This document shows, one piece after another, positions 3,661 to 25,878 of a stretch of DNA of 46,195 bases. Below the pieces are notes generated by a model that was given only the letters and a program-made list of their open reading frames with translations, searched no databases and was not told the origin of the DNA. The first letter of the stretch is position 1; each line of letters begins with the position of its first letter. This stretch comes from a virus, in the IMG/VR virus record IMGVR_UViG_3300046674_000233, positions 1 through 46,195 of that record. One strand, given 5' to 3'. Made by a program: the position numbers and the translations under genes.

Positions 3661-3671
3661 GTCGAAAGTAG

Positions 3672-3700
3672 TTGACAGAGTTTAGTAATTAAACTATTCT
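3672..3700 (+). promoter_or_regulatory. Class 1 promoter with AGTTTA-N5-TAAACT operator
   Basis: TTGACA (3672-3677), a 17-bp spacer, and TATTCT (3695-3700). The palindrome centre reads GTAAT, shared with the promoter at 10736, whereas the other three have TTTAT. It drives the single gene at 3753. Confidence 0.85.
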
Positions 3701-3717
3701 ACAACTCATGGACGCGA

Positions 3718-10709: not shown

Positions 10710-10722
10710 GCGCCCGTTGCGC
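10710..10722 (-). promoter_or_regulatory. Leader-RNA hairpin of class 1 cassette
   Basis: The 4-bp stem GCGC/GCGC with loop AACGG lies in the leader between the promoter and the 10688 start. It corresponds to the elements at 3718, 25879 and 45757. Confidence 0.5.
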
Positions 10723-10735
10723 CGCGATGAATTGC

Positions 10736-10764
10736 ATAATAGTTTAATTACTAAACTTTGTCAA
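10736..10764 (-). promoter_or_regulatory. Class 1 promoter with AGTTTA-N5-TAAACT operator
   Basis: On the minus strand TTGACA (10764-10759), a 17-bp spacer and TATTAT (10741-10736). It is the only class 1 promoter on the minus strand. It drives the small-gene operon 10688 to 8621. Confidence 0.85.
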
Positions 10765-10986: not shown

Positions 10987-13407
10987 TTATGCAGCTTGCG
11001 GGATGCCGACCAGCGCTGCCACCTGCGCCGAGGTGTAGGCGCCGGCGATCACGGTCGCGCCCTGCAGGTAGTAGGCGGGGGAGCCCTGGCGCACGTACAG
11101 CCGCGGCTTGGTGCCGTCGGGTTGGACGGTATTGTTGACGCGCCCCTCGGGCAATCCCGGGTGCTGCACGTAGCCGAGCGCACCGAGCGTTTCCTTGAAC
11201 TTGCGGTTCGACAGGTGCCGGCGCTTCTGCTCGAGCAAGCGGGTCAGGAACACAGAGCTGATCCAGTCGCCGGCGAAACCCTGCTGGCCCTGCGCCACGG
11301 CTTCCAGAATCTCCTGCTCGATGACGCCCATACTCGCCGTGATCGCCTCCTCGGTGCTGCTTGTCTCGGGCGCGCGCTGGCACAGGGCGCCGGCCGGGTT
11401 GAACTCCTCGGGAATCGGCCATGTGGCCAGCAGCTCGGCCACGATCGCGTACCCGCCGTGACGCAACCAGGCGTAGATATCGTTCATATAGCGCCCGGCC
11501 ATGCCGTCGCGCTTCAGGTCTTCGGGTTCCTGCTGGGCGGTATAGAACACGGCGTAGCGGCGGTCGCGCTTCGTCTTCGGCAGCGCGTCCTTGTGATTCG
11601 TGTTGAACATGAAGTTGCCGCAGACGTCCGCGCTGTACTGGTCGCGCCCTTTGTTCTCGATCTCCAGGCCGTCGCCGCCCGTAATCATGGGTTTTAATTC
11701 CTCGATGACGTCGCGTTTGTTCGGGCCGGATCCGCCGGTGTAGATGTCCTCGACCGCATAGAAGACCTTGCCGACCATCCAGCCGTTGAATTCCTTCGAC
11801 AGTTTCGACGCCTTCGGCCAGTGCACATACCGGCGCCCGACCGCGTGCGCAACGCAGCGGGTGAGAAGCGTCTTACCGTTACCCTCGACGCCTTGGATCA
11901 GCGGCGCCCACTGGAATTTAACGCCGACGTGCTGGACGCAGGCGGCCATATAGGACAGCAGGATTTGCTGGTCGCGCTCGTTCGGCAGAAGTTTGCGCAG
12001 GTGCTGCAGGAACGGGCCGGCGTCGCCCACGGTGCGCGGCACGTCGACCGGCCACCACGTATTGACCAGCACGCGCCCGCCGTCGTCGATTATTTCGCCC
12101 GGGGTGCGGTCCGGCTTGAAACAGGTGCTATCGGCGCGCGGCACGCGGAATGCCTGGTTCTGCGTGAACGCTTCCCAGGCGTCGCGGCTGGTGCGCTCGT
12201 TGGCGTTATCCATCGGGAAGCTAAAGCCGCCGAAGGTCACGCGGAACTGCTCGGGTTTGAGCATCACGCCGCCCGGCACCAGCGCCTGGTGCTGGTCGAC
12301 CACGTACACGCAGCCGGCAAACATTTCGATTTGCTGCTCGATGGTCAGGAACGTGGCGCCGGTCACGGGTTCCGGCCGAGGCGTCCCCCTGCGCTCGCCC
12401 GAGGGCGGCGCCTGGTGCGTCAGGCGCACGGGTTCGGGCAGCTTGTCCTGCAGCGGCTCGGTCAGCCGGGCGCAGGCGGCCATGATGGTGCGCGGTAGAT
12501 AGTCCTCGCGGTCCCACTTCTCGCGCGCAAGCTGACTGCGGCGCATCAGGCGCAAGATGCGCTCACAGTCGCCGCCGGTCCAGAACGCCAGGTGCGAGGC
12601 GAGCGCGCTGTCGGCCTCGCTGCCGCCGTAGGCGTCCGGGCTGCCGGTGTCGGCCGGGTAGGTGCGGGCCAGGGCGTCAACGTTGCGGCTCCACAGGTCG
12701 GCGAACGTGGCCTTGCCGCTGAACGCGCCGTCTTTCGATACGCTGCGCAGCGCCCGCGTCACGAGCTGGTCGTCATCCTCGGGGCCGCGCCAGTCCGCAC
12801 GCGGGCCGGTCGTCCATTCCGTCGCAGCGCCTGGCGCTTGCGCTGCGGTGTCGGGCTTAAACAGCTGGTCGACCAGCTGCGCCACCTGCACCGTGCAATC
12901 GAGGCCCGCATTGCCGCGCGCGTTGGTGCCGGTCAGGGCCACGAAGCGGCCGGACGTGTAGAACTCCAGGCCGTACGCCTTGTTCCGGGTGCCGTGCTGC
13001 GGGACGGTGCTGGCGGTGCCGAAGATGTGCAGGCCGGCGCCGCTGTTGCTCACCTCGACGGCCGCGTTCGGGAACAGGTTGCACAGCGCGGTTGCCACCT
13101 GCGACCACTGGCCGTTCGCATAGGCGCCGTCGATGTCGAGGAACCAAAAGGGGTCGTTCGCGGTGAACACGAAGCCGACGCCGAACGGGTACAGGCCGCC
13201 CTGCGCGTTCCAGTGCGCGCACCACGCAATCGCCGTGTTGACGTCGGTCCAGACTGCCGGATCGTGGGCGCTGACCACGCGGCCGGTGCGGAAGTCGCAT
13301 GGGAATTTGTTGGTCTTGCCGGGCTTCGTCGGGTGCGGTACGACCGTGTAGACGATGAACTGCGCGTACGCCGCCATCGGGGCCAGGGCTTCGGGTAGCG
13401 CGTGCAT
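10987..13407 (-). CDS. Primase-polymerase / SF3 helicase
   Basis: An 806-aa replication protein that makes primers and unwinds the fork. The N-terminal PrimPol domain (residues 1-190) has the acidic motif FLDIDG near residue 90 and the histidine motif SGAGLHIFG near 125. A middle domain leads to an SF3/D5-type helicase: Walker A GVEGNGKT near 506, an acidic Walker B-like segment VEDIY near 545, and a sensor Asn in FMFNTNHKDALP near 600. The start overlaps the TetR-like stop (TGATG) and has AAGGA upstream. It is expressed together with that regulator from the class 2 promoter at 13759. Confidence 0.92.
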   Translation of the reverse strand: MHALPEALAPMAAYAQFIVYTVVPHPTKPGKTNKFPCDFRTGRVVSAHDPAVWTDVNTAIAWCAHWNAQGGLYPFGVGFVFTANDPFWFLDIDGAYANGQWSQVATALCNLFPNAAVEVSNSGAGLHIFGTASTVPQHGTRNKAYGLEFYTSGRFVALTGTNARGNAGLDCTVQVAQLVDQLFKPDTAAQAPGAATEWTTGPRADWRGPEDDDQLVTRALRSVSKDGAFSGKATFADLWSRNVDALARTYPADTGSPDAYGGSEADSALASHLAFWTGGDCERILRLMRRSQLAREKWDREDYLPRTIMAACARLTEPLQDKLPEPVRLTHQAPPSGERRGTPRPEPVTGATFLTIEQQIEMFAGCVYVVDQHQALVPGGVMLKPEQFRVTFGGFSFPMDNANERTSRDAWEAFTQNQAFRVPRADSTCFKPDRTPGEIIDDGGRVLVNTWWPVDVPRTVGDAGPFLQHLRKLLPNERDQQILLSYMAACVQHVGVKFQWAPLIQGVEGNGKTLLTRCVAHAVGRRYVHWPKASKLSKEFNGWMVGKVFYAVEDIYTGGSGPNKRDVIEELKPMITGGDGLEIENKGRDQYSADVCGNFMFNTNHKDALPKTKRDRRYAVFYTAQQEPEDLKRDGMAGRYMNDIYAWLRHGGYAIVAELLATWPIPEEFNPAGALCQRAPETSSTEEAITASMGVIEQEILEAVAQGQQGFAGDWISSVFLTRLLEQKRRHLSNRKFKETLGALGYVQHPGLPEGRVNNTVQPDGTKPRLYVRQGSPAYYLQGATVIAGAYTSAQVAALVGIPQAA

Positions 13408-13724
13408 CAGGTTCCTTTCGGGCCGCAGGCAGCCAGCGCACGGGCGCGCAGTTCACGCGGTGCGCGCATGGCCACGGGGTGCTTGGCGATGATGCCCTGC
13501 GCGACCACGCGCAGGCGCTCCTGCTGCACGGCGTGGCGCATCACGGTACGGCGCAGCTCGTCCATCGTGCCGCAGTAGTGCGAGACCAGCCCCGGCGCGA
13601 TGTCCAGGTGATCCGCGATCATCTGCCGCGTGATGTTGGTATAGCCGTAGACCTCGGCCGAGCGCAATGCTTCGTCGAGGATCTGCTGTTGGCGCGCGTT
13701 GGCGGGTAGTCGGTCGGTAGTCAT
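13407..13724 (-). CDS. Short TetR-like transcriptional regulator
   Basis: 105 aa. Residues 10-60 match the DNA-binding half of TetR regulators: RQQQILDEALRSAEVYGY, then TRQMIADHLDIAPGLVSHYCGT, then MDELRRTVMRHAV. A full TetR protein has about 200 residues, so the ligand-binding domain is missing or reduced to a short helical tail; a dimeric minimal regulator is likely. The ATG lies about 7 bp after the -10 box, so the mRNA is probably leaderless. Its promoter carries the TTGACG-N4-CGTCAA operator, which suggests autoregulation and control of the other three class 2 regions. Confidence 0.82.
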   Translation of the reverse strand: MTTDRLPANARQQQILDEALRSAEVYGYTNITRQMIADHLDIAPGLVSHYCGTMDELRRTVMRHAVQQERLRVVAQGIIAKHPVAMRAPRELRARALAACGPKGT

Positions 13725-13730
13725 AATTGG

Positions 13731-13759
13731 ATCATAAGAGTTATTGACGAGTCCGTCAA
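13731..13759 (-). promoter_or_regulatory. Class 2 promoter with TTGACG-N4-CGTCAA operator
   Basis: On the minus strand TTGACG (13759-13754), 17 bp, TATGAT (13736-13731). The palindrome at 13744-13759 covers the -35 box. It overlaps the stop codon of the upstream Lar-like gene. The regulator ATG at 13724 is where transcription should begin. Confidence 0.82.
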
Positions 13760-14040
13760 CGATTTGCGATGAATGCCAACACTGCGGCTTTCGCCAGGTC
13801 TCGCGGCTCGCCGGGCGAAGCCATGCAGAAACGACGCATCAGCAGTTCAAGCTGCGGGAAGTCGGCTTCGGGTATCGTTGCGCGCGTATTCCAGACATCG
13901 CGATCTACGCTTTTAAAAGAAGCGAGGCACTCCCGGTTCGAACAGCGCACGGCGGTGATATCGAGGCTCCCATCCCACCAGCGGACGGCGTCCGCTTTGC
14001 TGCCGCAGAACGGGCAGGCCTTCGCTTTCGATTGAGTCAT
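13756..14040 (-). CDS. Lar-like zinc-ribbon protein
   Basis: 94 aa. It begins with a zinc ribbon, CPFCGSKADAVRW, followed by CSNRECLASF, the arrangement of the Lar family (restriction alleviation proteins of Rac prophage and many phages). The C-terminal half is helical. The start is an ATGA overlap with the methyltransferase-like gene. Lar modulates host type I restriction or enhances modification; that role is known for the family and inferred here. The gene next to two DNA methyltransferases supports an anti-restriction function. Confidence 0.7.
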   Translation of the reverse strand: MTQSKAKACPFCGSKADAVRWWDGSLDITAVRCSNRECLASFKSVDRDVWNTRATIPEADFPQLELLMRRFCMASPGEPRDLAKAAVLAFIANR

Positions 14041-14723
14041 GCGGCTCTCCTGTATCGGTAACGTTGCGCCAGTATGTGCGCAATCCATCGGTCGGCCATC
14101 GCCTCGGCAATGCCCGGATAAGTTTTGCTACGCAGGACGCTGCGGTCATCGGTGGGCGGCAGTTTGTTCTGGCCGCTGTCGGTCTGGTTATCCCAGCGTT
14201 CGACCATCCGACCGCTACCGCGCGGCCATTCGACGATGCGGCCAGGGCAGCGCTTGGCCGGGTCGATCTCGAGGGGCGGCAGGTTCTTTAGCCACAGGCC
14301 TGTTTTCTTGCTGGCGTCGTCGCCGAACTCGTATGGCTGGACAAACTGGTCGGCGGGGCGTATGCGGGTTCCGATGCAGCCCTGCGGATTCTCCAGCGCG
14401 ATGTGCTCGATCGGCGCGCCCAGCAGCAGGCGGACGAAATCGAGCGCCTCTTCGGTTTGCGTGCCGCCGTAGCGGACATTCCCCGGCCGCTTGTTCCAGT
14501 GCAGGCCGCTGCTTGACAGGTAGGTGCACGGCGGAAAACAGATCATCCCATCCCATCCCATCCCGAGCAGCGGCACAACGTCGCCCATGATGTGCAAATG
14601 GCGATTCGCGGTAGCCGATGACGGCAGCAGGTCGCACGACACGGCCATGTGGCCGCGCTGAATGATGGCGTCCCGCACGGCGCCGGATTCTTCGCACGCG
14701 ATCAGAAAGGACAGCTGCGTCAT
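14037..14723 (-). CDS. C5-cytosine methyltransferase-like protein
   Basis: 228 aa. The start is the ATG at 14723, which overlaps the previous stop; longer upstream frames lack a site. The N-terminus SFLIACEESGAVRDAIIQRGH resembles the cofactor-binding motif I region. CFPPCTYLSSSGL near residue 62 holds the PPC-type catalytic motif, and ALENPQG near 108 holds the ENP motif. At 228 aa it is shorter than bacterial C5 methyltransferases (over 300 aa), as is common for phage versions with a reduced target-recognition domain. It may modify phage DNA; activity is not certain. Confidence 0.8.
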   Translation of the reverse strand: MTQLSFLIACEESGAVRDAIIQRGHMAVSCDLLPSSATANRHLHIMGDVVPLLGMGWDGMICFPPCTYLSSSGLHWNKRPGNVRYGGTQTEEALDFVRLLLGAPIEHIALENPQGCIGTRIRPADQFVQPYEFGDDASKKTGLWLKNLPPLEIDPAKRCPGRIVEWPRGSGRMVERWDNQTDSGQNKLPPTDDRSVLRSKTYPGIAEAMADRWIAHILAQRYRYRRAA

Positions 14724-15028
14724 GTGAACATCGCCTCGAAAGCGGCCTTGCAACGCAGGCGCGCATCGTGCAGTTCGGCCGCCTGTTGCTGGCTGATGGC
14801 GAACATATCGTCGGCCTCGGCTTTCGAGTCGCATAAGGCGAGGACGCTGCCAACAGCGCAGTATTGCCCTTCGTCTTCGCCGTGTCGGTTCTTGAAGTAG
14901 ACGCGCTTTCCGGAACGGCGCACCACTTGGCGCGGCCCCGCACAGATCTGGTCAAGCATTATCGGCGTCTGCAGTATCCATTGACCCGGCAGGATTTCGG
15001 TCATCATAGTTATTTTTCGAATGCTCAT
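14720..15028 (-). CDS. Hypothetical protein (102 aa)
   Basis: Coupled to both neighbours by ATGA overlaps (15028 and 14723), so the ATG at 15028 is preferred over internal Met residues. A central beta segment (VVRRSGKRVYFKNRHGEDEG) leads to a C-terminal helix rich in Ala, Cys and Gln. It may be a small DNA- or RNA-associated protein. No family was recognised. Confidence 0.75.
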   Translation of the reverse strand: MSIRKITMMTEILPGQWILQTPIMLDQICAGPRQVVRRSGKRVYFKNRHGEDEGQYCAVGSVLALCDSKAEADDMFAISQQQAAELHDARLRCKAAFEAMFT

Positions 15029-15504
15029 AAAGTTCCCGTCCCAGTTGCAAAACCCGCATCGCCGCCGCACGAGGCCACCAGCAGCGCCCAGCGCCGTTGC
15101 GCCTCTTCGCGCTCGGTGCCGCTGTAGGTCCAGCCGGGTGCCTTCATTTCGCGCGAGACGAACTGTCCGATCGTGGCGCCGACGTGCAGCGGCGTGATGA
15201 CGATCGGGCGAATGCCGATCAGGTCGGCGGACTTGAGTACCTTGTTGACTGCAGCCGACTCGTTGGCCAGGCCGTACCGCACCGGAACGCCGCGCTCGTC
15301 GACCAGCGCGCCCACGTTGTTGCGCCACAGCCGCACGCCCTTTTGTGCCGCTTCCAGGCGTACGGCAGCTTGCGCCGCCCCCTCGCTCTCGCCGCGCAGG
15401 TCGTCCGGAATACTGCCGGCGCCGTCCTGGCCCAGCTCGCGCGCCAGGTCGTGCAGGGCGGCCATGCTCACGCCCCATTTGAGCGCCCAGGGAAATAAAT
15501 TCAC
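15025..15504 (-). CDS. VRR-NUC domain nuclease
   Basis: 159 aa with a GTG start in a GTGA overlap. Residues 45-125 fit the VRR-NUC fold of the PD-(D/E)XK superfamily: AAVRLEAAQKGVRLWRNNVG, then KSADLIGI with the catalytic Asp, then FVSREMKAPGW with the E-x-K pair. Stand-alone VRR-NUC proteins cut branched DNA, including Holliday junctions. In phages this one usually sits in the replication module beside a helicase, as it does here (helicase at 16286). Confidence 0.85.
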   Translation of the reverse strand: MNLFPWALKWGVSMAALHDLARELGQDGAGSIPDDLRGESEGAAQAAVRLEAAQKGVRLWRNNVGALVDERGVPVRYGLANESAAVNKVLKSADLIGIRPIVITPLHVGATIGQFVSREMKAPGWTYSGTEREEAQRRWALLVASCGGDAGFATGTGTL

Positions 15505-15824
15505 AGGGCGCCCCCGGTCAACGCGTTGAGGTCCGCCAGCGCCGCGCGCAGCTCGTTGCGGTCGATCTTGGCGCCCATGGCGCGCACCTTGTCGGCGAGC
15601 GTGTCCTCGCTCATGAGCATCTGCGTGCGCTTCGTGGTCGAGTCGTACACGCGGATAATCGGGAACTCGCCGCCGAAGAACTTGCGCGCCCAGGCGTTGA
15701 ACTCGGCGCGGTATTCAGGCGTGACCGGCACGTTCTCGGCCAGCTTGAAACGCGGCTTGTCGATTAGGTCCGAGCGCACCGTCACGACCGGCAGACCATA
15801 GAGGGCGTCGGCGATGCGTGTCAT
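15501..15824 (-). CDS. Hypothetical protein (107 aa)
   Basis: ATGA overlap at its start and GTGA overlap at its end. An N-terminal beta region (DALYGLPVVTVRSDLIDKP) is followed by helices with basic and acidic faces (EDTLADKVRAMGAKIDRNEL). No motif was recognised. It lies directly upstream of the nuclease and could be a partner. Confidence 0.75.
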   Translation of the reverse strand: MTRIADALYGLPVVTVRSDLIDKPRFKLAENVPVTPEYRAEFNAWARKFFGGEFPIIRVYDSTTKRTQMLMSEDTLADKVRAMGAKIDRNELRAALADLNALTGGAL

Positions 15825-16084
15825 TTCGGGCCTCGCAGATCAACCTTGTCCGGGTTCGCATTCGCGTATTCGTCAAGCGTGAACTCGCGCCCGACCATGC
15901 CGCCCTTGACGTGCGTATGCTGGGCTTTCAGTTTCGCCAGCTGCGCTACGGTAAATTGACGGGCGGTGCGCGGGTCGAACGTCCAGGTTACGAGCTTGCC
16001 CGAGCGAGTGACGGATTCAAGGTACGCGGGGTTCTCGCGGCTGGCAGGCTTCGCGATCGATTTGAGCAGGAAGCGGGGCATCAT
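15821..16084 (-). CDS. Hypothetical protein (87 aa)
   Basis: Overlaps both neighbours (ATGA). A second in-frame ATG at 16081 is an alternative start. The sequence is basic with a central TWTFDPRTARQFTVAQLAKL region that looks like a beta hairpin and helix. No family was recognised. Confidence 0.75.
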   Translation of the reverse strand: MMPRFLLKSIAKPASRENPAYLESVTRSGKLVTWTFDPRTARQFTVAQLAKLKAQHTHVKGGMVGREFTLDEYANANPDKVDLRGPK

Positions 16085-16272
16085 TCCGGCACCTTGCGCG
16101 CGCGGCGCACTTCCATGACAGGCTCGTAATGGCCCATCGCCGGCGGCATCAGCGGGCGCTGCCCAACCGTGACGACGAGGCCCAGTTCGTGCGCCTTGCG
16201 GACCCAGTAATAGGCGTTGTCGATGACGTGCGCCTCGTCGCTGCTGACGTCGATTTTTTGGATCAGCTCCAT
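16081..16272 (-). CDS. Hypothetical protein (63 aa)
   Basis: ATG at 16272 behind AGGAGTCATA, a good site, 31 bp after the -10 box of the class 2 promoter at 16303. The product begins MELIQKIDVSSDEAHVIDNA, with a helix and a short beta strand. It is the first gene of the nuclease and methyltransferase operon. No function is recognised. Confidence 0.78.
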   Translation of the reverse strand: MELIQKIDVSSDEAHVIDNAYYWVRKAHELGLVVTVGQRPLMPPAMGHYEPVMEVRRARKVPE

Positions 16273-16285
16273 TATGACTCCTAAA

Positions 16286-18073
16286 TTAGTTAAACTCGGG
16301 CAATACTACCCCGGCGTTGACGGTCCCGTCAACTCCATGTTTGGAAAGTTCCGCGATGATACGGCCGTGCAGGTCCAGCGCCGGCGCGCGGTCGAATGTC
16401 TGCATCGTCCAGGCGTCCACGCCGAATTTCAGATAGAAGCGTTTATGTGCCTCGGCGTCCGACAGGCCGCGCGCAGTGCAGAGGCCCGACCACCAGGCGG
16501 CGGCGTTCTTGAGGGCGGCAATGGCGCTCTTGTGTTCGCCGCGCAGCTTGTGCTGATAGCCCAGTGCCGCAGGCGGCGCGCTGGCCGGCAGGATGATCGG
16601 GGACTCCAGCTTGGCCGAGATGCCGCGGCGCAGCGCGTCGGCATAGGCGTCGTCGACCAGCAGCATGTTCCCTTCGACGTGTTCAGGGCTCGCGCGCACC
16701 GCCGGCGCGGCCTTCGCGAACCCGCAGTACGGGCAGCACGCGCGCCACTTCTCGTAAGGCTGGGCGCACGCGATGCCGGTCGCCGGGTCGTTCGGGTTCA
16801 AGCACATGACCAGCGGCTCGGCGTCGCTTTCCTTGCTGGCGCGCTTCTCGCGGCGGTCCAGCGTCCACATGCCGCGGCGCCAGGTCGCATCGGGCGGCCC
16901 CTTGTGGCGCAGGATATTGCCGACGTGGTCGATGATGATCGCGCGCGGCTTGGTGCTGGCCGCAATGGCGGCGCGGCGCTCTGCGTCGGTGAACGTGTCC
17001 CAGCGCGCGGCGACGGCCGGGTCGAGCATGAGGCGCAGGGCGCGGCCGAACTGCTGGACGAACAGGCCGAAGCTGTTTGTATGCCTTGCCATCGATACAA
17101 CTTCCACGGCGGGCAGGTCGAAGCCCTCGCCGATCAGGTCGACCGATACGAGCTGCAGGAACTCGCGGCGCCGGAACCTGGCGAAGATCGACGCGCGCAG
17201 GTCGTCGGGCGTCTTGCCGCTCACGACCTCGGCGCGCACGCCCGCGTCACGGTAGCCCTGCGCGATCTTGGTTGCCTCCTCGATGTCGACGGCGAACGTG
17301 ACGCCGAGCTTGTCCTTTGCGTAGGCCAGGTACGTGCGGACCACGTCGCCCACGATGCGCTTGGATTTGTGGTGCTCGTCGCGCAGGCGCTTTTGGTTAA
17401 AATCGCCATCTGCGCCGATCGGCACGTCCGACACGTTGACGTCCGACTCGGCCAGCACGAGCCGGTAGTCGGTCAGATAGCCCATGTCGATGATGTCGCG
17501 CATTTCAGGCGCGAGGATCAAATGGTCGGCCAGACCGTCAGCGTGGCGGCCCAACCCTTTGCCGTCGGCGCGGCTCGGGGTCGCGGTCGGGAACAGGCCG
17601 TACGCGCTTGGTAGCCTGGCCAGCGCGCGGCCCCACGAGTTTTCGCGCAAAATGTGGTGCGACTCGTCGACCACGACCATGCCGCACTGCGTCATCCAGG
17701 GTTCATCCGGGCGCCCGACGAAGGTCTGCACGCCGGCGGCGAAGCACTTCGCGCGCGGGTCGATGTAGCTGGCGCCGATCTCGTTAATGTGCGCCGACAC
17801 GATGCGCCGCACGACGTTGTCCGGCGCGATGACGCGGTGCTGCAGGCCGTAGCACGCCATTGTGAGCGATATCTGCCCGATGAGCTCCTGCCGGTGCACC
17901 AGCGCGCCGCGCACGCCCTGGTAGTCGTTGAGCATGTCGCAGAAAAACACGGTCTTGCCGGATCCGGTCGCGGCCACGGGCATCGCGTTCGACGGTCCCG
18001 ACATGCTGCCCCATGCGGCGTAGACGTCGTCCTTTAATTTGCGCTGGTAGGGGCGCAGCTGCGGACGGGTCAT
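16286..18073 (-). CDS. DEAD/H-box helicase, type III restriction-like
   Basis: 595 aa. The ATG at 18073 overlaps the methyltransferase stop; an 11-residue upstream extension is unlikely. Motif I AATGSGKT is near residue 38, motif II DESH with the following His near 134, and the helicase C domain contains LVSVDLIGEGFDLP and an arginine-rich motif VI region (FVQQFGRALRLML). A zinc-binding segment near 424-453 (CLNPNDP and CCPYCGF) precedes a helical C-terminus. It probably unwinds or remodels DNA in replication or recombination. The end of the gene contains the class 2 operator at 16317. Confidence 0.9.
   Translation of the reverse strand: MTRPQLRPYQRKLKDDVYAAWGSMSGPSNAMPVAATGSGKTVFFCDMLNDYQGVRGALVHRQELIGQISLTMACYGLQHRVIAPDNVVRRIVSAHINEIGASYIDPRAKCFAAGVQTFVGRPDEPWMTQCGMVVVDESHHILRENSWGRALARLPSAYGLFPTATPSRADGKGLGRHADGLADHLILAPEMRDIIDMGYLTDYRLVLAESDVNVSDVPIGADGDFNQKRLRDEHHKSKRIVGDVVRTYLAYAKDKLGVTFAVDIEEATKIAQGYRDAGVRAEVVSGKTPDDLRASIFARFRRREFLQLVSVDLIGEGFDLPAVEVVSMARHTNSFGLFVQQFGRALRLMLDPAVAARWDTFTDAERRAAIAASTKPRAIIIDHVGNILRHKGPPDATWRRGMWTLDRREKRASKESDAEPLVMCLNPNDPATGIACAQPYEKWRACCPYCGFAKAAPAVRASPEHVEGNMLLVDDAYADALRRGISAKLESPIILPASAPPAALGYQHKLRGEHKSAIAALKNAAAWWSGLCTARGLSDAEAHKRFYLKFGVDAWTMQTFDRAPALDLHGRIIAELSKHGVDGTVNAGVVLPEFN
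16303..16332 (-). promoter_or_regulatory. Class 2 promoter inside the helicase gene
   Basis: On the minus strand TTGACG (16332-16327), 18 bp, TAGTAT (16308-16303). The palindrome TTGACG-N4-CGTCAA (16317-16332) lies in the last codons of the helicase. It drives the operon 16272 to 13756. Confidence 0.78.
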
Positions 18074-19488
18074 GCGGCCTCCGCGCGGCGCTTGGCGATC
18101 TCGCAATAGTGCGGGTCGAGTTCGAAGCCGACGAACTGGAAGCCCTCGCGCTTGGCCGCCGCCCAGGTCGAGCCGCTACCGGTGAACGGGTCCAGCACCA
18201 GGCCGCCGGGCGGCGTGACGAGTCGGCACAGGTACTGCATGAGGGCGGCGGGTTTCACGGTCGGGTGATCGTCGAGACCTGCGTTTCGTTCCGCGCTGCT
18301 CGCTTTGGCCGCATAGAAGAACCGTGCGGCGCTCTTGTCGGCTTCGCGTCGCGGCTCGCTGGCGTGGCGCCGGTCCATGAGCCCATAGGCCACTTGATTC
18401 CCAGCCCCAGGGCTGGAGCTGGGTTCGTCGCCCGTAAGCGCGCCTTGCTGGCCGCCTGCGTCCGGGAACGCCGCGATCACTTCGTCGCTGCCGTCGTGGA
18501 TCAGGTTGGCGGGCCAGCGTCCGACAGCTTCGCGCGGTTCGGAATCCGCCGGCTGCGATGACGGGCGCCCGTGATTTAGGCAGTTCCCGCCGATACCGTT
18601 CGCCGCCGGCGCGTTGACTCGCACATCATCCCCGACCCGGCACCCGCCGATATTGAGCGCCCCCGTACCGTGCGCCAGGACGTTTGCGGCCACGGTGCCT
18701 ATGAGCGGCTTGCGCGCGACGCATATCGGCTCGTGCGCCGGCTTGAGGGCGGTTCCCCAGCCTTCCCACTGGCGGGCGGCGTCGGATAGTTCGCGGATCG
18801 AGGTGTCGACGACGTTAAACCGATGCTCGCCGAAGCCGGGCGTCTGCCCCGCATGCTCGCCGATAATTTCGGCGTTCTGGTACGTGTCGCCCGGCTGACC
18901 CTTGCGCCCGTTCAAGCGCCATACTTCGGCGTCAAGGTCGGCAGACAGCGGCAGCACGGCGCGCAGCGTTTGCCACTGCTCCCAGGTGCATAGCGCCGGC
19001 TGGCTGTCGGTATCGCGCGCCGCCCAGTGGTCAATCAGCCGCGGGTGGCAATCGCCGAACACTGGCGCCAAGTCGCGTGACTTCATTTTTACGGAGTCCA
19101 TCGCAGCACGAATCGCGCGGCAGATTACGCGCGTTGGCTCTTTGTCCTCGGTGCGCGACTTGTCGATAGCCTTCGATACGTCCAGCGACTTAGGGAATCC
19201 CGACCCGTAGACCCACATGATTTGATCGCGCACTTCGAACCCGGCGTCTTCGATAGCGCACGCCATGCGGTGATAGGTGCGCGAGCCCGAGAACGCGAGC
19301 AGGTGGCCGCCGGGTTTCAGCACGCGCAGCGCCTCGCGCCACATTTCGACGCTGTTAGCGATGCCGGACGCGTCCCACGCCTTGCCCATGAAGCCCAGTT
19401 CGTAGGGCGGATCGCATACGATGGCGTCGACGCTGTTGTCAGCCAGGCAAAGGCGCATTCCGGCGACGCAATCCATGTTAATAATCAT
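18070..19488 (-). CDS. DNA N4/N6 methyltransferase (beta class)
   Basis: 472 aa. Motif IV DPPY is near residue 26, ahead of motif I at the C-terminus, the order of beta-class DNA amino-methyltransferases; PFTGSGST near 430 is the AdoMet-binding loop, preceded by HPTVKPAALMQYL. The middle (about 110-330) is a large target-recognition region. The gene starts next to a divergent class 2 operator. A closer ATG at 19476 is a possible alternative start. It methylates adenine or cytosine amino groups and could protect phage DNA or alter its expression; no matching nuclease was found. Confidence 0.88.
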   Translation of the reverse strand: MIINMDCVAGMRLCLADNSVDAIVCDPPYELGFMGKAWDASGIANSVEMWREALRVLKPGGHLLAFSGSRTYHRMACAIEDAGFEVRDQIMWVYGSGFPKSLDVSKAIDKSRTEDKEPTRVICRAIRAAMDSVKMKSRDLAPVFGDCHPRLIDHWAARDTDSQPALCTWEQWQTLRAVLPLSADLDAEVWRLNGRKGQPGDTYQNAEIIGEHAGQTPGFGEHRFNVVDTSIRELSDAARQWEGWGTALKPAHEPICVARKPLIGTVAANVLAHGTGALNIGGCRVGDDVRVNAPAANGIGGNCLNHGRPSSQPADSEPREAVGRWPANLIHDGSDEVIAAFPDAGGQQGALTGDEPSSSPGAGNQVAYGLMDRRHASEPRREADKSAARFFYAAKASSAERNAGLDDHPTVKPAALMQYLCRLVTPPGGLVLDPFTGSGSTWAAAKREGFQFVGFELDPHYCEIAKRRAEAA

Positions 19489-19504
19489 ATCTTTTAAATT
19501 CTTG

Positions 19505-19534
19505 TTGACGGGAGCGTCAAGAATAATTTAGCAT
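19505..19534. promoter_or_regulatory. Divergent class 2 promoter with TTGACG-N4-CGTCAA operator
   Basis: The palindrome at 19505-19520 carries TTGACG on both strands. On the plus strand it is followed after 18 bp by TAGCAT (19529-19534) and serves the 19590 operon. On the minus strand it gives TTGACG with a weak TTAAAA 17 bp on (19497-19492), a possible promoter for the methyltransferase. One bound dimer could control both directions. Confidence 0.72.
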
Positions 19535-19589
19535 TTGCTCGCGGTCAAGTTCTTTATGACCCTTTCCCAAACCATAACGGAATCCTAAG

Positions 19590-20426
19590 ATGATCCAAAT
19601 TACTGTTACCGACCCGGCGAAGACCCCCCGCGCACAGCTCGCGATTGCAATCGCCGTACTGCAGGCGTTCCACGATGGCGAGCGCGCCGTCAACGAATTG
19701 GCCCAGCGCCTCACGGGTAGCGCCGCGCTACCCCCGGCAAGCATCGCCCCCGACGACCTGCCCGACGCCGGCGCCGGCCCCGACACGCCCCCGAACCCCG
19801 CGCAGGCATTCGGCAACGCTGGCGCGGCGGCGGCCTTCGGTGCCCCGGGAAACGTCCCGGCTGCTGGCAGCGCGGCTACTATCGACCCGAATACCGCGTT
19901 TTCGCCCCCTGCAGCCCCGAGCGCGCCGCCCGCTGCGGGTGCCGGTGCGACTGTCGAACTTGACACGGACGGCCTGCCGTGGGATGGCCGCATCCACGCC
20001 AGCACGAAGGGCAAGAACGCCGATGGCCGCTGGAAGGCGAAACGCGGCGTCGAGGCGGCACTCGTCGCCCAGGTGCAGGCCGAGCTGCGCGCCGTGATGG
20101 GCGCACCGAGCGTCCCAAACGCTCCGACGACTGGCGCCGCACCTACGCCGCCTATCGTGACCCCGCCGGCCCCACCAGCCCCGCCGATTTCCCCGGCTGG
20201 TATTGCGGCGCCTGCTCCGCCCACCATCCCAACCGCCCCGATTGGTGTCGACTTCCCGAGCCTGGCGAAGATGGTCGGCGAGCTGATCCCGGCGGGCCGC
20301 CTGACGAATGAAACGCTGTCGGCCATCGTGAGCAAGTACGGCCTGCCGGGCTTCGGCCTGCTGTTCAACCGTCCTGACCTGGTGCCGGCTATCCACGCCG
20401 ACATTATGGCCAGCGTGCAGGGCTGA
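19590..20426 (+). CDS. Proline/alanine-rich replication-associated protein (278 aa)
   Basis: First gene of the plus-strand replication operon. The N-terminal 45 residues form a helix. A conserved block, VELDTDGLPWDGRIHAS near residue 121, then RWKAKRGV, is common in phage proteins of replication modules. It is flanked on both sides by disordered Pro/Ala linkers. The C-terminal 60 residues are helical (DFPSLAKMVGELIPAGRL). Exact function is unknown; the position supports a replication or recombination accessory role. The ribosome binding site is weak. Confidence 0.75.
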   Translation: MIQITVTDPAKTPRAQLAIAIAVLQAFHDGERAVNELAQRLTGSAALPPASIAPDDLPDAGAGPDTPPNPAQAFGNAGAAAAFGAPGNVPAAGSAATIDPNTAFSPPAAPSAPPAAGAGATVELDTDGLPWDGRIHASTKGKNADGRWKAKRGVEAALVAQVQAELRAVMGAPSVPNAPTTGAAPTPPIVTPPAPPAPPISPAGIAAPAPPTIPTAPIGVDFPSLAKMVGELIPAGRLTNETLSAIVSKYGLPGFGLLFNRPDLVPAIHADIMASVQG

Positions 20427-20429
20427 GCC

Positions 20430-21218
20430 ATGAGCGCCCAGGACAAACAGACCGGGGCGCCTTCGGGCGCTCCAACACTGGACGATGCAGCCAACGCCGT
20501 AATTCTTGGCGCGCCACCGGGCGGGACTGTCGTGCAGTTCCTCGACCGCCTGCGCACGATGGCGCAAGGCCTCGACATTTCGCAGCCCGAATCGGATTAT
20601 TACGCGCTGGAACACGCCCTGCAGATCGGCGCGTTCCAGTCGATCGACGACGATGCGGGTCTGTACGCGATCAGCGCGCGCAAGCTTTCGGAATACGTCT
20701 GCTGGTGGCGGGCGTTCGTCGACGCCGAGCGTGCGGCGCCGCAAACCCTGTCGCTAAAAATCGACACGAGCGCCGTGCAAGCCGAGATCGACAAAGCCGT
20801 CGCCGAGTTCGAAGCGTACCGCGACGAGCACCGCCGCCTGGTGCGCGAGTTGGACGTCGCGCTCAATGGCGAAATGGGCGCCGCGCTGCAGGCGAGCTTG
20901 TGTGACCTCGTGGCCCAGGTGCGCAGCCAGCGGGGCGTGCAGGTGCTGAACATGGCCGATGGCATGCGGATCAACTTCCGCGCACCGGACGGGCGCCGCG
21001 CAACGCTGCACTTGGCGCGGTTGCTGACGCCGCACGCCATCATAGCGGATGACGAAGTGTTCGCGACCATGGAGGATGCGATCGCAGCGTACCCCGTGGC
21101 CGGTGAGCCGCTGCCCGAGTTGCACAGCGACGCGCACGACATGGCGCAGGTGCAGGCGCTGGGCGAGGGCTCGCAGGTGCATCCCGAAAGTGCGCTACCG
21201 TCGCGGGGGCAACCGTGA
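20430..21218 (+). CDS. Hypothetical replication-module protein (262 aa)
   Basis: Starts 3 bp after the previous stop and ends with a GTGA overlap to the DUF2800 gene. A Thr/Ala-rich N-terminus is followed by a helical region with a long charged coil (about residues 100-150, AEIDKAVAEFEAYRDEHRRL) and a beta region after residue 170. The coil suggests oligomerisation. No family was recognised. Confidence 0.75.
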   Translation: MSAQDKQTGAPSGAPTLDDAANAVILGAPPGGTVVQFLDRLRTMAQGLDISQPESDYYALEHALQIGAFQSIDDDAGLYAISARKLSEYVCWWRAFVDAERAAPQTLSLKIDTSAVQAEIDKAVAEFEAYRDEHRRLVRELDVALNGEMGAALQASLCDLVAQVRSQRGVQVLNMADGMRINFRAPDGRRATLHLARLLTPHAIIADDEVFATMEDAIAAYPVAGEPLPELHSDAHDMAQVQALGEGSQVHPESALPSRGQP

Positions 21219-22369
21219 GCGGCCAACACGCATTCTTGCCGCCATCCGGCGCCGGCGCATGGGTCAACTGTGCGGCCTGGCCGCTCATGAACGCCACGTA
21301 CCCGCAGGACGACACGGAGGCCAGCATGGAGGGCACCGCAGCGCACTGGGTGTGGGAGCCGGCACTGTCCCATGGTGCGAACCTGCCGGCGCTGGGCGCG
21401 GTCGCCCCGAACGGCGTACAGGTGACGGACGAAATGCTCGACGGCGCCGAGGAGTATATCGAGATCGTGACGAGCGCCGCGCGCGATGCTGGCCGCCCGC
21501 TGGACGAGCTGCACGTCGAGGAGCGAGTCTTCATGCCCGGCATCCACGCGCAGAACGACGGCACGCCCGATACCTGGTTCTACGATCCGCACCGGATGCT
21601 GATCCAGCTGTTCGATTACAAATTCGGTCACGACCCAGTCGACGCGTTCGAAAACTGGCAACTGATCGACTACGCGAACGGGATTATCGATCTGCTTGCG
21701 GCATGGCTCTCGCTTACGTGGGCCGCCGGGGCGGTGCTGCGCTGGCGCGAGACGGTGCGCGTGCGCTGCACGGTCGTCCAGCCGCGCAATTACCAGAGCG
21801 ACCGCGTGACGACGTGGGAAGTGTCGGGCGCCGATCTGGTCAACTTCTGGCTCGTGTTGAAAGCGGCTGCCGAAAACGCCATGCAATACCCGCCGCTGGC
21901 CACGCCGGGCGACCATTGCGAGCACTGCCCCGGGCGCCACGCCTGCGCGGCCGTCCAGCGCGCCGGCTACCAGGCGGGGAACTTCGCGCGCCAGGTGTTC
22001 CCGTCGCCGCTGCCAACCGAAGCTGTTGCGGCCGAGCTGGCGATCCTGCAGGACAGCCTCGTGATGCTCAAGGCGCGCATCAGCGGCTTGGAAGCGGACG
22101 CCGAGGCCAGGCTGCGGCGCGGCGAAGCGGTGCCGGGCTACGGGCTGGAATCGACGAAAGGGCGGGAGACGTGGCGCGTGCCGGTCGAGCAAGTCGCCGC
22201 GCTCGGCAAGGTGTTCGCGATCGCCGTCGAAAAGCCTGCGCTCATCACGCCGAACCAGGCGCGCAAAGCGGGCATGCCGGCCGATGTGGTCGCCACGCTG
22301 GCCGGCGCATCGAGCGGCGTGAAACTGACTCGTGTCGATCAACGCAAGCTCGCGAAGACGTTCGGCTAA
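21215..22369 (+). CDS. DUF2800 family PD-(D/E)XK nuclease
   Basis: 384 aa, GTG start in a GTGA overlap. The layout matches the DUF2800 family, a Cas4/RecB-like group in phage replication modules: an early SGAGAWVNCAAWP segment, an acidic GTPDTWFYD near 116, and FDYKFG near 134 carrying the D-x-K pair of the catalytic core. A Cys cluster, CEHCPGRHAC near 235, resembles the Cas4 iron-sulfur site and could hold metal. It probably processes DNA ends in replication or recombination. The next gene is the DUF2815-like protein, its usual neighbour. Confidence 0.85.
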   Translation: MSGQHAFLPPSGAGAWVNCAAWPLMNATYPQDDTEASMEGTAAHWVWEPALSHGANLPALGAVAPNGVQVTDEMLDGAEEYIEIVTSAARDAGRPLDELHVEERVFMPGIHAQNDGTPDTWFYDPHRMLIQLFDYKFGHDPVDAFENWQLIDYANGIIDLLAAWLSLTWAAGAVLRWRETVRVRCTVVQPRNYQSDRVTTWEVSGADLVNFWLVLKAAAENAMQYPPLATPGDHCEHCPGRHACAAVQRAGYQAGNFARQVFPSPLPTEAVAAELAILQDSLVMLKARISGLEADAEARLRRGEAVPGYGLESTKGRETWRVPVEQVAALGKVFAIAVEKPALITPNQARKAGMPADVVATLAGASSGVKLTRVDQRKLAKTFG

Positions 22370-22378
22370 AAATAGTTG

Positions 22379-22408
22379 TTGACGGCCTCGTCAATAGGAT
22401 CATAAAAT
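22379..22408 (+). promoter_or_regulatory. Class 2 promoter with TTGACG-N4-CGTCAA operator
   Basis: TTGACG (22379-22384) with the palindrome through 22394, then 18 bp and TAAAAT (22403-22408). It gives a separate start for the ssDNA-binding protein and polymerase inside the plus-strand operon. Confidence 0.78.
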
Positions 22409-22452
22409 CATTTCCGCAGTTTAATTTATCTCAACAAATACGGGAGCATCAA

Positions 22453-23556
22453 ATGGGTATGGAAATCAACATCACTTTGCCGCCTGGCCGTCTGGTTCGC
22501 GGTTCGCTGTACAAGCCGACCACGACGGATATGCAGGGCAATCCGCTCGTCGTGAAGAACGGCCAGAACGCCGGCCAACCGCGTGAAGACTGGTATTGCG
22601 AGATCGCGATCTCGAAAGCGGGCGAACAGCACTGGGCGCATACGACGTGGGGCAAAGATTTGTACCAGGTCGGCGCAACCGACTTCCCGCAGGCCGTGCA
22701 GCGTCAGGACTTCGCATGGAAAGTGATCGATGGCGATTCGACCGCCATGAACCAGGGCAACAAGGTCTACCGCGACATCCCCGGCTATGCCGGTTGCTGG
22801 GTCGTGCGCCTGTCCTCGGGCTACAAATCGCCGCTGTTCACGGGTCAGGCCGGCGCGTGGGTCCAGCAGCCGCAGGAGGATTTCGTCAAGCTGGGCGACT
22901 TCATCCAGGCCGCCGTAACGATCAAGGGTAACGGCCAGGCCCAAAAGCCGGGCGTCTACATCAATCACAGCATGTTCGCGTTCATTGGCTACGGTCAGCG
23001 CATCGTCAGCGGCCCGGACGCGAATAGCGCAGGCTTTGGCCAGGCGCCGCTGCCGCCGGGCGTGATGGCGACCCCGCCAGCCGGCGCGCCGATGCCTGCC
23101 GCACCGAGCACCCCGCCGATCCCAGGCATGCCGCCGGCACCAGGCGCGCCGGCCCCGATCATGCCGCCGCCTGCGGCCCCCGCACCTGCCGCCCCGCCGC
23201 TGCCCGCTGCAGCGCCTGCTGACCCGCTCGTCGGCGTGCCGGGCGCTGCTCACACGGTTGCAAGCCTGCGCGCTGCTGGCTGGACGGACGACCAAATCGT
23301 CGCCGGCGGCCATGCGACCCGCGCCGCCGCGCCGGTGCCGGCCCCTTTGCCCCCGGGTATTTCTGCGCCGGCGCCCGCCGCGCCCGTTGCCCCGGCTGCG
23401 CCTGCCGCGCCGGTGATGCCTAACCCGGCATTTGCGCAGATCCCCGCGGCGCCGCAGCTGACCCCGGCCGGCGTGGCCGCTGGCGGCACGTACGATGCGT
23501 TCCGTGCGCAGGGCTGGCAAGACGACCAGCTGCGCGCGCAGGGCTACATGGCTTAA
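22453..23556 (+). CDS. DUF2815-like single-stranded DNA-binding protein
   Basis: 367 aa, ATG at 22453 behind GGGAGCATCAA. Residues 1-190 form a beta-rich OB-like domain (GRLVRGSLYKP, WYCEIAISKAGEQHW) resembling the DUF2815 family of phage ssDNA-binding proteins. A long Pro/Ala-rich disordered linker follows, about 200-330. Two short repeats appear after it, LRAAGWTDDQIVAGGHA and FRAQGWQDDQLRAQGYM, sharing GW-x-DDQ-x3-GG or GY. The linker may bind partners, as ssDNA-binding tails do. It lies between DUF2800 and the polymerase and ends at two terminators. Confidence 0.8.
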   Translation: MGMEINITLPPGRLVRGSLYKPTTTDMQGNPLVVKNGQNAGQPREDWYCEIAISKAGEQHWAHTTWGKDLYQVGATDFPQAVQRQDFAWKVIDGDSTAMNQGNKVYRDIPGYAGCWVVRLSSGYKSPLFTGQAGAWVQQPQEDFVKLGDFIQAAVTIKGNGQAQKPGVYINHSMFAFIGYGQRIVSGPDANSAGFGQAPLPPGVMATPPAGAPMPAAPSTPPIPGMPPAPGAPAPIMPPPAAPAPAAPPLPAAAPADPLVGVPGAAHTVASLRAAGWTDDQIVAGGHATRAAAPVPAPLPPGISAPAPAAPVAPAAPAAPVMPNPAFAQIPAAPQLTPAGVAAGGTYDAFRAQGWQDDQLRAQGYMA

Positions 23557-23569
23557 CTGAGTCTCCCGG

Positions 23570-23586
23570 GCCGCTTGCGGCTTTTT
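23570..23586 (+). terminator. Intrinsic terminator after the ssDNA-binding protein gene
   Basis: Stem GCCGC/GCGGC with a TT loop, then TTTTT. The first of two back-to-back hairpins. It would limit polymerase mRNA relative to ssDNA-binding protein mRNA. Confidence 0.75.
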
Positions 23587-23618
23587 GCCTCGCCGCCTAC
23601 ACGGGGCGGGGCTTTTTT
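23587..23618 (+). terminator. Second intrinsic terminator
   Basis: 8-bp stem GCCTCGCC/GGCGGGGC (one T-G wobble pair), 10-nt loop, then six T. Together with the preceding hairpin it should reduce read-through into the polymerase gene. Confidence 0.75.
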
Positions 23619-23637
23619 AATTCTGGAGTATCGCAAT

Positions 23638-23694
23638 ATGGATGAACCGATCCGCAAGCGCCGCGAGGACGAGCAACACGAGGCCTCGGAATGA
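23638..23694 (+). CDS. Leader peptide of the DNA polymerase (18 aa)
   Basis: A short frame, MDEPIRKRREDEQHEASE, starts behind CTGGAG and ends as ATGA at the polymerase start, so polymerase translation may depend on it. It lies after two terminators and just before a run of 18 prolines. The sequence is charged and has no membrane part. A translational coupling or control role is inferred, not shown. Confidence 0.55.
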   Translation: MDEPIRKRREDEQHEASE

Positions 23695-25826
23695 TCGCAC
23701 CCCCACCGCCACCGCCACCGCCACCGCCACCGCCACCGCCACCGCCACCGCCAGGCGCCGCCCCGGTGCTGGTCATGCCCGGCCGCGAGCGCGTCGTCGT
23801 CGATACGGAGTGCTACGGCGACTACTGGCTGTTGATGGCCAAGCGCCTCAGCGACCGCGCTGTCGTGGCCGTGATCGAGTCGTTCCCCGGACAGCCAATC
23901 GACCGCCAGGCGCTGGCCGCGCTGCTGCAGCGCTCTACGATTATCACGTTCAACGGCAAGGGCTACGACGAGCCCATGATCGCAGCGGCGCTGGCCGGCT
24001 GGGATACGCGGCAGCTCAAATGGCTGTCGGACCGGATCATCGTGGGCGGCCTGCGACCGTGGGAAATCGAGCGCGAGTACAAACTCAAGCTGCCCGACTA
24101 CGCCGACGGCATCGACATCATGGAGGTCATGCCAGGACAGCACGGCCTCAAAATGTACATGGCGAAGATGCACAGCCGCCGCATTCAGGAACTGCCGATC
24201 GATCCGGCCGCCAGCATCACGCCCGAGATGCGGCCGAACATGCGCGAATATTGCGGGAACGACCTCGAGGGCAATATCGACGGCTACCTGCAGTTCGAAA
24301 AAGAGATCAAGCTGCGCGAGACGATGAGCCGCGAGTATGGCGTCGACCTGCGTAGCAAGTCGGACGCGCAGATTGCCGAGGTCGTCATCGTGCACGAGCT
24401 GGGCGGACCGCAGGCTGTGCCGCGGCCAGAATGGGTGACCGGGACGTATTTCCATTACGACCCACCGGCGTACCTGGCGTTCGAGACGCCGATGCTGCGA
24501 CAGCTGCTCGACATCGTGCGCGGCGCGCGCTTCGTGCTTGGCGACAAGGGGATCGAAATGCCGCCCGAGCTGGGCGACGCGAAGATTCGGATTGGCGCCG
24601 GCCTGTACACGCTGGGCATTGGCGGGTTGCACTCCAACGAAAAGAGCGCGCACCATATCGCCGACGGCATCGTCACGCTGCAGGACGTCGACGTGCGCAG
24701 CTTCTACCCAAAGCTAATGCTCAACAGCGGCGCCTATCCGGCGCATATGGGGCCGGCGTTTCTTCGCGTGTTCCAGGGCATTGTTGATCGTCGCCTTGGG
24801 AATAAAGATGGTTACGAGGCGCTTGAGCATCTGCACGGGTCGCGTAAAAAAATGGCGGGTGCTGTCGCCGATGCGTACGATGACTTCAAGAGCAACGCCG
24901 ACACGCTCAAGATCGTGATTAACGGCACGTTCGGGAAAACCCTGTCCAAGTACGGCCGTCTCGTCGCGCCGAAGATGGGCATTCAAACGACCATTACGGG
25001 CCAGCTGTCGCTGCTCATGCTGATCGAGCATCTGGAGGGCGCCGGGATCCCCGTCGTGAGCGCGAACACGGATGGCATCGTCATCAAGTGCCCGCGCGCG
25101 CTGACCTGGCTGCGCGACGACATTGTGCGGTGCTGGGAGCAGCGGTGCGGACTGGAAACCGAGGCGACCGATTACGCCGCAATCTACTCGCGCGACGTCA
25201 ACAACTATATCGCGATCAAGCCCTCGGGCGAGGTCAAGACGAAGGGCGAGTACGCGCCCACGAAGCCTGTCGGCGGGTCGTGGCCGAACCCTACCGGCTA
25301 TATCAGCGTCGAGGCGGTCATCGCCTACCTGCAGCACCGCACGCCGCTCGAGCAGACTGTGCGCGCCTGCCAGGATATCCGCAAGTTCGTGCACGTCCGC
25401 ACCGTCACCGGCGGCGGCGTCAAATTCTACGGCGACCAGATCGAGGCGGCCACGCGGCAAGGCGACATGCGCGCGCAGCTGGCGGCGGCAGGTTGGATCG
25501 AGTGCGAAACGAAGATGTTCGCGCAGGCCTACCCGAGCGGCGCCGCGCCAATCCCCATGAAGGATGCGCACAAGCTGGCCGTGCAGCAGCTGCGGGCCGA
25601 CAACCCGGTGCGGCGTGAATACCTCGGCAAGGTCGTGCGCTGGTATTACGGCGCCGGCGAAGTGGGGGCGATCCGCTACCAGAAAAACGGCAACCTGGTG
25701 CCGAAGACAGAGGGCGCGGTTCCCTGCATGGTGCTGCCGGACCAGCTACCGACGAACATCGATTACGCATGGTACGTGCGCGAGGCGAAAAGCATGCTGT
25801 CGGATTTGGGCGTCGCGGTTCTGTAA
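23691..25826 (+). CDS. Family B-like DNA polymerase with 3'-5' exonuclease
   Basis: 711 aa. The exonuclease has DTE near residue 37, NGKGYD near 88, and YCGND near 186. The polymerase motifs are DVRSFYPKL near 332 (motif A), KIVINGTFGKT near 407 (motif B), and NTDG near 459 (motif C). All fit family B and not family A. The N-terminus has 18 consecutive prolines at residues 4-21, encoded by the hexamer repeat at 23703. If the true start were Met29, the proline run would not be translated, but the ATGA overlap supports 23691. It is the replicative polymerase of the phage. Confidence 0.9.
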   Translation: MIAPPPPPPPPPPPPPPPPPPGAAPVLVMPGRERVVVDTECYGDYWLLMAKRLSDRAVVAVIESFPGQPIDRQALAALLQRSTIITFNGKGYDEPMIAAALAGWDTRQLKWLSDRIIVGGLRPWEIEREYKLKLPDYADGIDIMEVMPGQHGLKMYMAKMHSRRIQELPIDPAASITPEMRPNMREYCGNDLEGNIDGYLQFEKEIKLRETMSREYGVDLRSKSDAQIAEVVIVHELGGPQAVPRPEWVTGTYFHYDPPAYLAFETPMLRQLLDIVRGARFVLGDKGIEMPPELGDAKIRIGAGLYTLGIGGLHSNEKSAHHIADGIVTLQDVDVRSFYPKLMLNSGAYPAHMGPAFLRVFQGIVDRRLGNKDGYEALEHLHGSRKKMAGAVADAYDDFKSNADTLKIVINGTFGKTLSKYGRLVAPKMGIQTTITGQLSLLMLIEHLEGAGIPVVSANTDGIVIKCPRALTWLRDDIVRCWEQRCGLETEATDYAAIYSRDVNNYIAIKPSGEVKTKGEYAPTKPVGGSWPNPTGYISVEAVIAYLQHRTPLEQTVRACQDIRKFVHVRTVTGGGVKFYGDQIEAATRQGDMRAQLAAAGWIECETKMFAQAYPSGAAPIPMKDAHKLAVQQLRADNPVRREYLGKVVRWYYGAGEVGAIRYQKNGNLVPKTEGAVPCMVLPDQLPTNIDYAWYVREAKSMLSDLGVAVL
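23703..23753 (+). repeat. CCACCG hexanucleotide microsatellite (8.5 copies)
   Basis: Perfect 51-bp run of alternating CCA and CCG, preceded by one CCC codon, at the 5' end of the polymerase. Each unit adds two prolines, so copy-number change keeps the frame. The tract could vary between phage isolates and would stall ribosomes that lack EF-P. Confidence 0.95.
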
Positions 25827-25833
25827 ATAAGTG

Positions 25834-25862
25834 TTGACAGAGTTTATTTATTAAACTATTAT
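25834..25862 (+). promoter_or_regulatory. Class 1 promoter with AGTTTA-N5-TAAACT operator
   Basis: TTGACA (25834-25839), a 17-bp spacer and TATTAT (25857-25862), 8 bp after the polymerase stop. It starts the cassette 25914-27415. Confidence 0.85.
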
Positions 25863-25878
25863 TCAATACATGGACGCG

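Follow-up and report, generated by a model that had tools for sequence, protein, structure and literature searches.

The viral record IMGVR_UViG_3300046674_000233 of IMG/VR, analysed over its whole length of 46,195 nucleotides and called the window below, contains a 16-bp palindrome, TTGACG-N4-CGTCAA, over the -35 box of four promoters of its replication genes, one of which belongs to a gene encoding a protein of 105 amino acids (aa) with a TetR_N domain. The four palindromes are very probably operators of this protein, which would serve as an autoregulated shut-off of early and replication genes; binding, dimerisation, repression and its timing are what we infer from sequence. The window ends carry an exact repeat of 127 bp, which indicates that the phage genome is complete and maps as a circle of 46,068 bp.

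The palindrome and the promoters it overlaps

Exactly four copies of TTGACG-N4-CGTCAA are present in the 46,068-bp genome, and 0.02 are expected per window from dinucleotide shuffles. An initial annotation, made from the sequence alone, had placed them at 13744, 16317, 19505 and 22379, and all four coordinates are exact; it had proposed a search for other sites, with many random copies counting against it, and a scan of the whole record revealed no further copy. Copies with exactly one mismatch are absent from the genome, and none of the seven two-mismatch copies (about two expected) lies at the four operators. The operators, listed without strand, are the following:

13744-13759: operator 1, TTGACGAGTCCGTCAA, 20 bp upstream of the TetR-like gene; its left arm on the minus strand is the -35 box
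16317-16332: operator 2, TTGACGGTCCCGTCAA, within the 3' end of the helicase gene, 45 bp upstream of a 63-aa open reading frame (ORF)
19505-19520: operator 3, TTGACGGGAGCGTCAA, in the divergent promoter between the methyltransferase-helicase operon (minus strand) and the operon of a 278-aa protein, a 262-aa protein and the exonuclease (plus strand)
22379-22394: operator 4, TTGACGGCCTCGTCAA, 59 bp upstream of the gene of the single-stranded DNA-binding protein (SSB)

A scan of positions 13400-23700 for sigma70-like promoters, run blind to the palindrome, found 10 promoters against 1.9 expected, with all four palindromes included. The predicted promoters at these sites are:

13731-13759, minus strand: promoter of the TetR-like gene and the primase, -35 TTGACG (13759-13754), 17 bp, -10 TATGAT (13736-13731)
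16303-16332, minus strand: promoter of the operon of small ORFs, methyltransferase and Lar-like protein, TTGACG-18-TAGTAT
19505-19534, plus strand: rightward promoter at operator 3, TTGACG-18-TAGCAT
22379-22408, plus strand: promoter of the SSB and DNA polymerase genes, TTGACG-18-TAAAAT
19520-19548, minus strand: alternative leftward promoter at operator 3, TTGACC-17-TATTCT; transcription from it would begin within operator 3

The view that an arm of each palindrome is a -35 hexamer followed by a spacer of 17-18 bp holds for all four sites in at least one direction, but the leftward promoter at 19505 may differ. The other leftward candidate there is TTGACG-16-TTTAAA; with TTGACC-17-TATTCT (19548-19520), the palindrome may cover the leftward start site and not its -35 box. 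The ATG of the TetR-like gene lies 6 nt past its -10 box (13724-13736), so the message of this gene may be leaderless.

The TetR-like protein and the palindrome across relatives

The 105-aa protein matches TetR_N (PF00440) with 22.3 bits and an E-value of 1e-4, the Pfam cut-off being 24 bits. Its relatives are also about 100 aa long, 48 of 55 match TetR_N, and tblastn searches found homologues in 41 annotated phage records (about 26-43% identity). AlphaFold modelling with the 55 relatives (mean predicted local distance difference test score, pLDDT, 92.8) predicted TetR-type helices 1-3 followed by helix 4 and a pair of short helices; a ligand-binding domain is absent. The model superposes on the TetR-type DNA-binding domain with a Foldseek probability of 1.0, and the Foldseek search matched the DNA-binding half of the TetR proteins LuxR, HapR and EilR, with LuxR-DNA structures at the top. 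The N-terminal TetR_N helix-turn-helix domain that marks the TetR family is present; the C-terminal helical ligand-binding/dimerisation domain is missing, only two short helices following helix 4, and the protein is therefore filed as a TetR_N-domain protein and not as a canonical member of the TetR family. The palindrome, with its half-sites one helical turn apart, is consistent with the binding of a dimer.

Viral contigs gave no matches when searched directly with the 105-aa protein, and the mixed TetR alignment was too diverse for scanning, so the replication helicase was taken as the anchor. It added 80 viral and several genomic loci. A small TetR-like protein (about 100 aa, TetR_N) is encoded within the fetched stretch in 93 of 100 non-redundant loci. 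The loci, which share the helicase, belong to phages of Klebsiella, Edwardsiella, Vibrio and Iodobacter and to many metagenomic phages. In the 99 loci besides the window, TTGACG-N4-CGTCAA is the commonest 6-mer palindrome at spacers of 0-12, with 35 exact copies in 20 loci and an average of 0.21 for GC-matched N4 words. Sites with at most one mismatch number 190 in 2.0 Mb and are about 40 times commoner than those of 40 permuted half-sites (mean 4.4, standard deviation 3.3, maximum 14); their density is 95 per Mb in the loci of the relatives versus 5 per Mb in bacterial contigs.

The sites are also concentrated in front of the TetR-like gene. In 25 of 85 loci the 300 bp that precede the TetR-like domain include a site with no more than one mismatch, compared with 2.4% of pieces drawn at random from these loci (Fisher p 5e-18), and the sites cluster about 80 bp before the domain. 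Operator 1 overlaps the promoter of the TetR-like gene itself, the arrangement looked for in an early repressor; together with the enrichment in homologues, this sequence evidence supports the autoregulation that had been hypothesised for the gene.

In whole genomes fetched by means of the TetR-like protein, all 6-mer palindromes and spacers were searched. TTGACG-N4-CGTCAA stood out in Klebsiella phage KpV79 (12 sites with at most one mismatch) and KsaM-C1 (13 sites), and its core, TTGAC-N6-GTCAA, in Edwardsiella phage MSW-3 (7 sites) and Vibrio phage CP-T1 (9 sites); 0.0-0.4 such sites are expected. All four places are occupied in KpV79 and KsaM-C1: before the TetR gene, at the helicase 3' end, in the divergent promoter and before the SSB gene. 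Of these, MSW-3 has all but the helicase-end site, and CP-T1 all but the one before the TetR gene, where nothing within one mismatch of the palindrome is present. In KpV79, KsaM-C1 and CP-T1, small early-type cassettes inserted between structural genes are likewise preceded by operators, in KpV79 at a distance of about 49-60 bp from the start codon. Outside the phages with TTGACG, the output of a generic intergenic palindrome finder was noisy.

The association is seen in the opposite direction as well. All viral contigs were searched for the operator plus TANNNT at a spacing of 17, with no protein reference; among the matches listed, 25 of 49 contigs of at least 16 kb encode the TetR-like protein (24 at E <1e-27, one at 3e-7) versus none of 42 picked with a control palindrome built in the same way (p 5e-9). 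Co-occurrence, the reverse search, the operator of the gene's own promoter and the conserved positions point to the link between protein and palindrome that the initial annotation had proposed.

A tandem-domain variant of about 166-180 aa (loci L007, L015, L037, L038, L039, L050, L052, L066, L079 and L107) has an additional, divergent TetR_N-like domain at the N-terminal end (E 5e-7 to 5e-4 with the family profile). It was considered whether such proteins use asymmetric operators, and this was rejected, as single-domain loci show arm asymmetry too. Among complete genomes, more sites occur in those of phages with Gly45 (mean 5.9 versus 0.6, p 0.002), a difference confounded by phylogeny and taken as a lead only.

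Predicted target genes, proposed mechanism and alternatives

The genes around the four operators are:

10987-13407, minus strand: DNA primase, downstream of the TetR-like gene
13407-13724, minus strand: TetR_N-domain protein, 105 aa, phrog_8723 (unknown function); predicted repressor of all four operators and of itself
13756-14088, minus strand: Lar-like restriction alleviation protein, stop codon within operator 1
14037-14834, minus strand: DNA methyltransferase, phrog_757, downstream of operator 2
16286-18106, minus strand: Superfamily 2 helicase, phrog_16
18070-19488, minus strand: N6/N4 DNA methyltransferase
21215-22369, plus strand: DUF2800 exonuclease, phrog_69
22453-23556, plus strand: Gp2.5-like SSB
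23691-25826, plus strand: DNA polymerase

Primase, helicase, exonuclease, SSB and DNA polymerase are each encoded downstream of one of the four sites. Operator 2 faces a run of small ORFs, the methyltransferase and the Lar-like protein; to the right of operator 3, two genes without known function are followed by the DUF2800 exonuclease. The gene matches agree with the initial placing of the sites before the TetR-like gene, the divergent methyltransferase and replication operons, and the SSB and polymerase genes. The description of the genes at 16317 as a nuclease/methyltransferase operon is borne out for the methyltransferase (phrog_757), but no nuclease family was matched there, and the site itself sits in the coding frame of the helicase 3' end and not in intergenic DNA. 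Neither an integrase nor CI was matched among the window proteins scanned, some small ORFs being outside the scan.

In the proposed mechanism, one dimer would occupy each 16-bp site, with one recognition helix per TTGAC(G) half and its centre at about -27.5, and would exclude host sigma70 RNA polymerase from the -35 box and the spacer. At the start of infection the near-consensus promoters would be open, and helicase, methylases, exonuclease, SSB, polymerase, primase and repressor would be made; the accumulating repressor would then turn down all these promoters, its own included, by a logic like that of lambda Cro. Since the predicted protein has no ligand-binding domain, no small-molecule inducer would be expected. 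A complete block of all replication transcription, as initially annotated, would be a further inference, because transcripts from elsewhere, such as the promoters with the window's other (first) palindrome family, could run through into internal operons.

This other family, AGTTTA-N5-TAAACT, fills the spacer of TTGACA-17-TATTCT-like promoters in five copies and drives other small genes. Its promoters are located as follows:

1974-2013: AGTTTA-N5-TAAACT promoter
3670-3709: AGTTTA-N5-TAAACT promoter
10720-10764, minus strand: AGTTTA-N5-TAAACT promoter
25832-25871: AGTTTA-N5-TAAACT promoter
45716-45755: AGTTTA-N5-TAAACT promoter

The suggestion that any promoter palindrome would correlate with the TetR-like gene was rejected, as AGTTTA-N5-TAAACT has a single one-mismatch hit in 89 other TetR loci; being a promoter palindrome is thus insufficient for the association.

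Several observations weigh against the assignment of the operators to the TetR_N protein. The TetR_N score of the window protein is just under the Pfam cut-off (22.3 versus 24 bits), and the covariation of recognition-helix residues with the operator is weak; position by position, covariation of the helix with site density reaches at best an uncorrected p of 5e-3. No TetR-like protein was detectable in 24 of the 49 operator-picked contigs (among the matches listed), which means that fragments, chance or other regulators also yield single sites. One 44-kb viral contig, L239, encodes no TetR-like protein but contains a related, longer palindrome twice. Finally, TTGACG sites are missing from several phages in which a TetR-like homologue is clearly present, and the operator must therefore vary from lineage to lineage.

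The two L239 copies, at 4042 and 5153, have the sequence TTGACGTATACGTCAA and lie inside a longer ACTTGACGTATACGTCAAG(C) repeat; they are a different regulator's sites or a repeat.

Among the phages lacking TTGACG sites, Acinetobacter phage Scuro contains TTGACA-N4-TGTCA five times (L015:21960, 22970, 26266, 28351 and 33394), including copies before the TetR-like gene, in the divergent promoter and before the gene that positionally matches SSB; this is likely a variant operator. In VP16T, CKB-S1 and Vibrio phage 1.009, these places are taken by other repeats. The sequences suggest an operator replaced at fixed positions, although covariation between helix and operator is weak. In loci L012, L016 and L021, repeats of the GCTAGATTAGCGCTAGATTAG / TAATCTAATGCTAATCTAA type are found in the divergent promoter and before the TetR gene, the places occupied by TTGACG palindromes in other phages, and these are possibly the operator of that lineage. 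The chances seem evenly balanced for a wider proposal, in which this ligand-free, single-domain TetR family, widespread and hitherto without function, is the early/replication shut-off switch of a large group of largely virulent phages (dwarf myoviruses and relatives with helicase, DUF2800, gp2.5 and PolA), with one shared operator on every early -35 box that was swapped in some lineages, e.g., Scuro, while its positions were kept.

The operator-picked contigs without a detectable TetR-like protein (about half, among the matches listed) and the phages that have the protein and no site would also fit the binding of another protein, either a host regulator or a different phage protein, with the TetR-like gene as a passenger in a conserved replication block. 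This is unlikely, given that the motif spans phages of Klebsiella, Edwardsiella, Vibrio and Iodobacter, which have no obvious single host regulator in common, that the sites are strongly enriched directly upstream of the TetR-like gene, that no other DNA-binding domain above the threshold was found among the other window proteins scanned, and that AGTTTA-N5-TAAACT is absent from the TetR loci apart from its one-mismatch hit.

If the TetR-like protein does bind the sites, it might activate, or both activate and repress, as a few TetR-type proteins such as Vibrio LuxR/HapR do, LuxR-DNA structures being the top structural matches. Activation, alone or along with repression, appears very unlikely: the palindrome lies inside the core promoter (about -27.5) and occupies the -35 box, while near-consensus boxes and optimal spacers of 17-18 bp make an activator unnecessary, so that the position is that of a repressor. 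Moreover, an EilR operator engineered in a 17-bp spacer, partly over the -35 box, represses (PMC6127294).

The register of the sites is that of promoters: 74-75% of 195 sites show a -10 box with at least 4/6 matches at spacings of 16-19, versus roughly 15-45% at most others. The -35 arm has 0.48 and the spacer arm 0.78 mismatches of 6. Every site contains a -35 box, but strong promoters with a -35 box mirrored by chance and no bound regulator are scarcely credible, since the second arm, which falls in the spacer, a stretch without sequence requirement for sigma70, is nevertheless about 87% conserved across relatives, which a bound protein explains and a promoter alone does not, and since exact mirror symmetry occurs 35 times versus an average of 0.2 for GC-matched words.

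Significance and comparison with known systems

No earlier report of this operator was found in the literature searched. The proposed early repressor would consist of a minimal TetR domain without a ligand-binding part. With the repressor reading, phrog_8723, listed in PHROGs as unknown, gains a predicted function, a target sequence and a regulon, and a prediction is obtained of how many phages without CI or an RNA polymerase of their own turn down their replication genes; the protein and its 16-bp site could also serve as an inducer-free repressor part.

Lambda Cro is a small autoregulated repressor of early promoters, its own included. The TetR_N protein would likewise turn down early and replication promoters including its own; however, the fold class is unrelated, the Cro operators are clustered triplets whereas those of the window are single and dispersed at four promoters, and no CI partner or lysogeny switch was seen in the window.

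The anti-CRISPR-associated (Aca) autorepressors are small helix-turn-helix proteins that repress from an inverted repeat inside a strong early core promoter (PMC9410906). The predicted operator lies inside the core promoter in the present case too, but Aca proteins control acr operons, in contrast to the replication operons here, and the fold families differ. T7 Gp5.7 is a 7 kDa winged-helix-like protein without the TetR fold that also binds RNA polymerase, and the abstract on it mentions no palindromic operator.

In Comeau et al. 2012 (PMC3391216), the genes of phages PLPE, CP-T1 and 138 are noted as tetR-like cellular regulators and co-option of an osmotic-stress regulator is suggested; these genes belong to the same protein family, and the passages found on them describe no operator or regulon.

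The TetR-type protein EilR of Enterobacter lignolyticus binds its palindrome as a single homodimer and is able to repress from a spacer/-35 position (PMC6127294). It has the same three-helix DNA-binding domain, and its base-contacting His47 aligns with His49 of the phage protein (PMC6127294). The phage protein differs from TetR and EilR in its length (105 aa versus about 190-220) and in having no C-terminal ligand-binding/dimerisation domain; the EilR operator eilO is 24 bp long, unlike TTGACG-N4-CGTCAA, and EilR controls an adjacent efflux pump gene, whereas the phage protein would govern a multi-site regulon.

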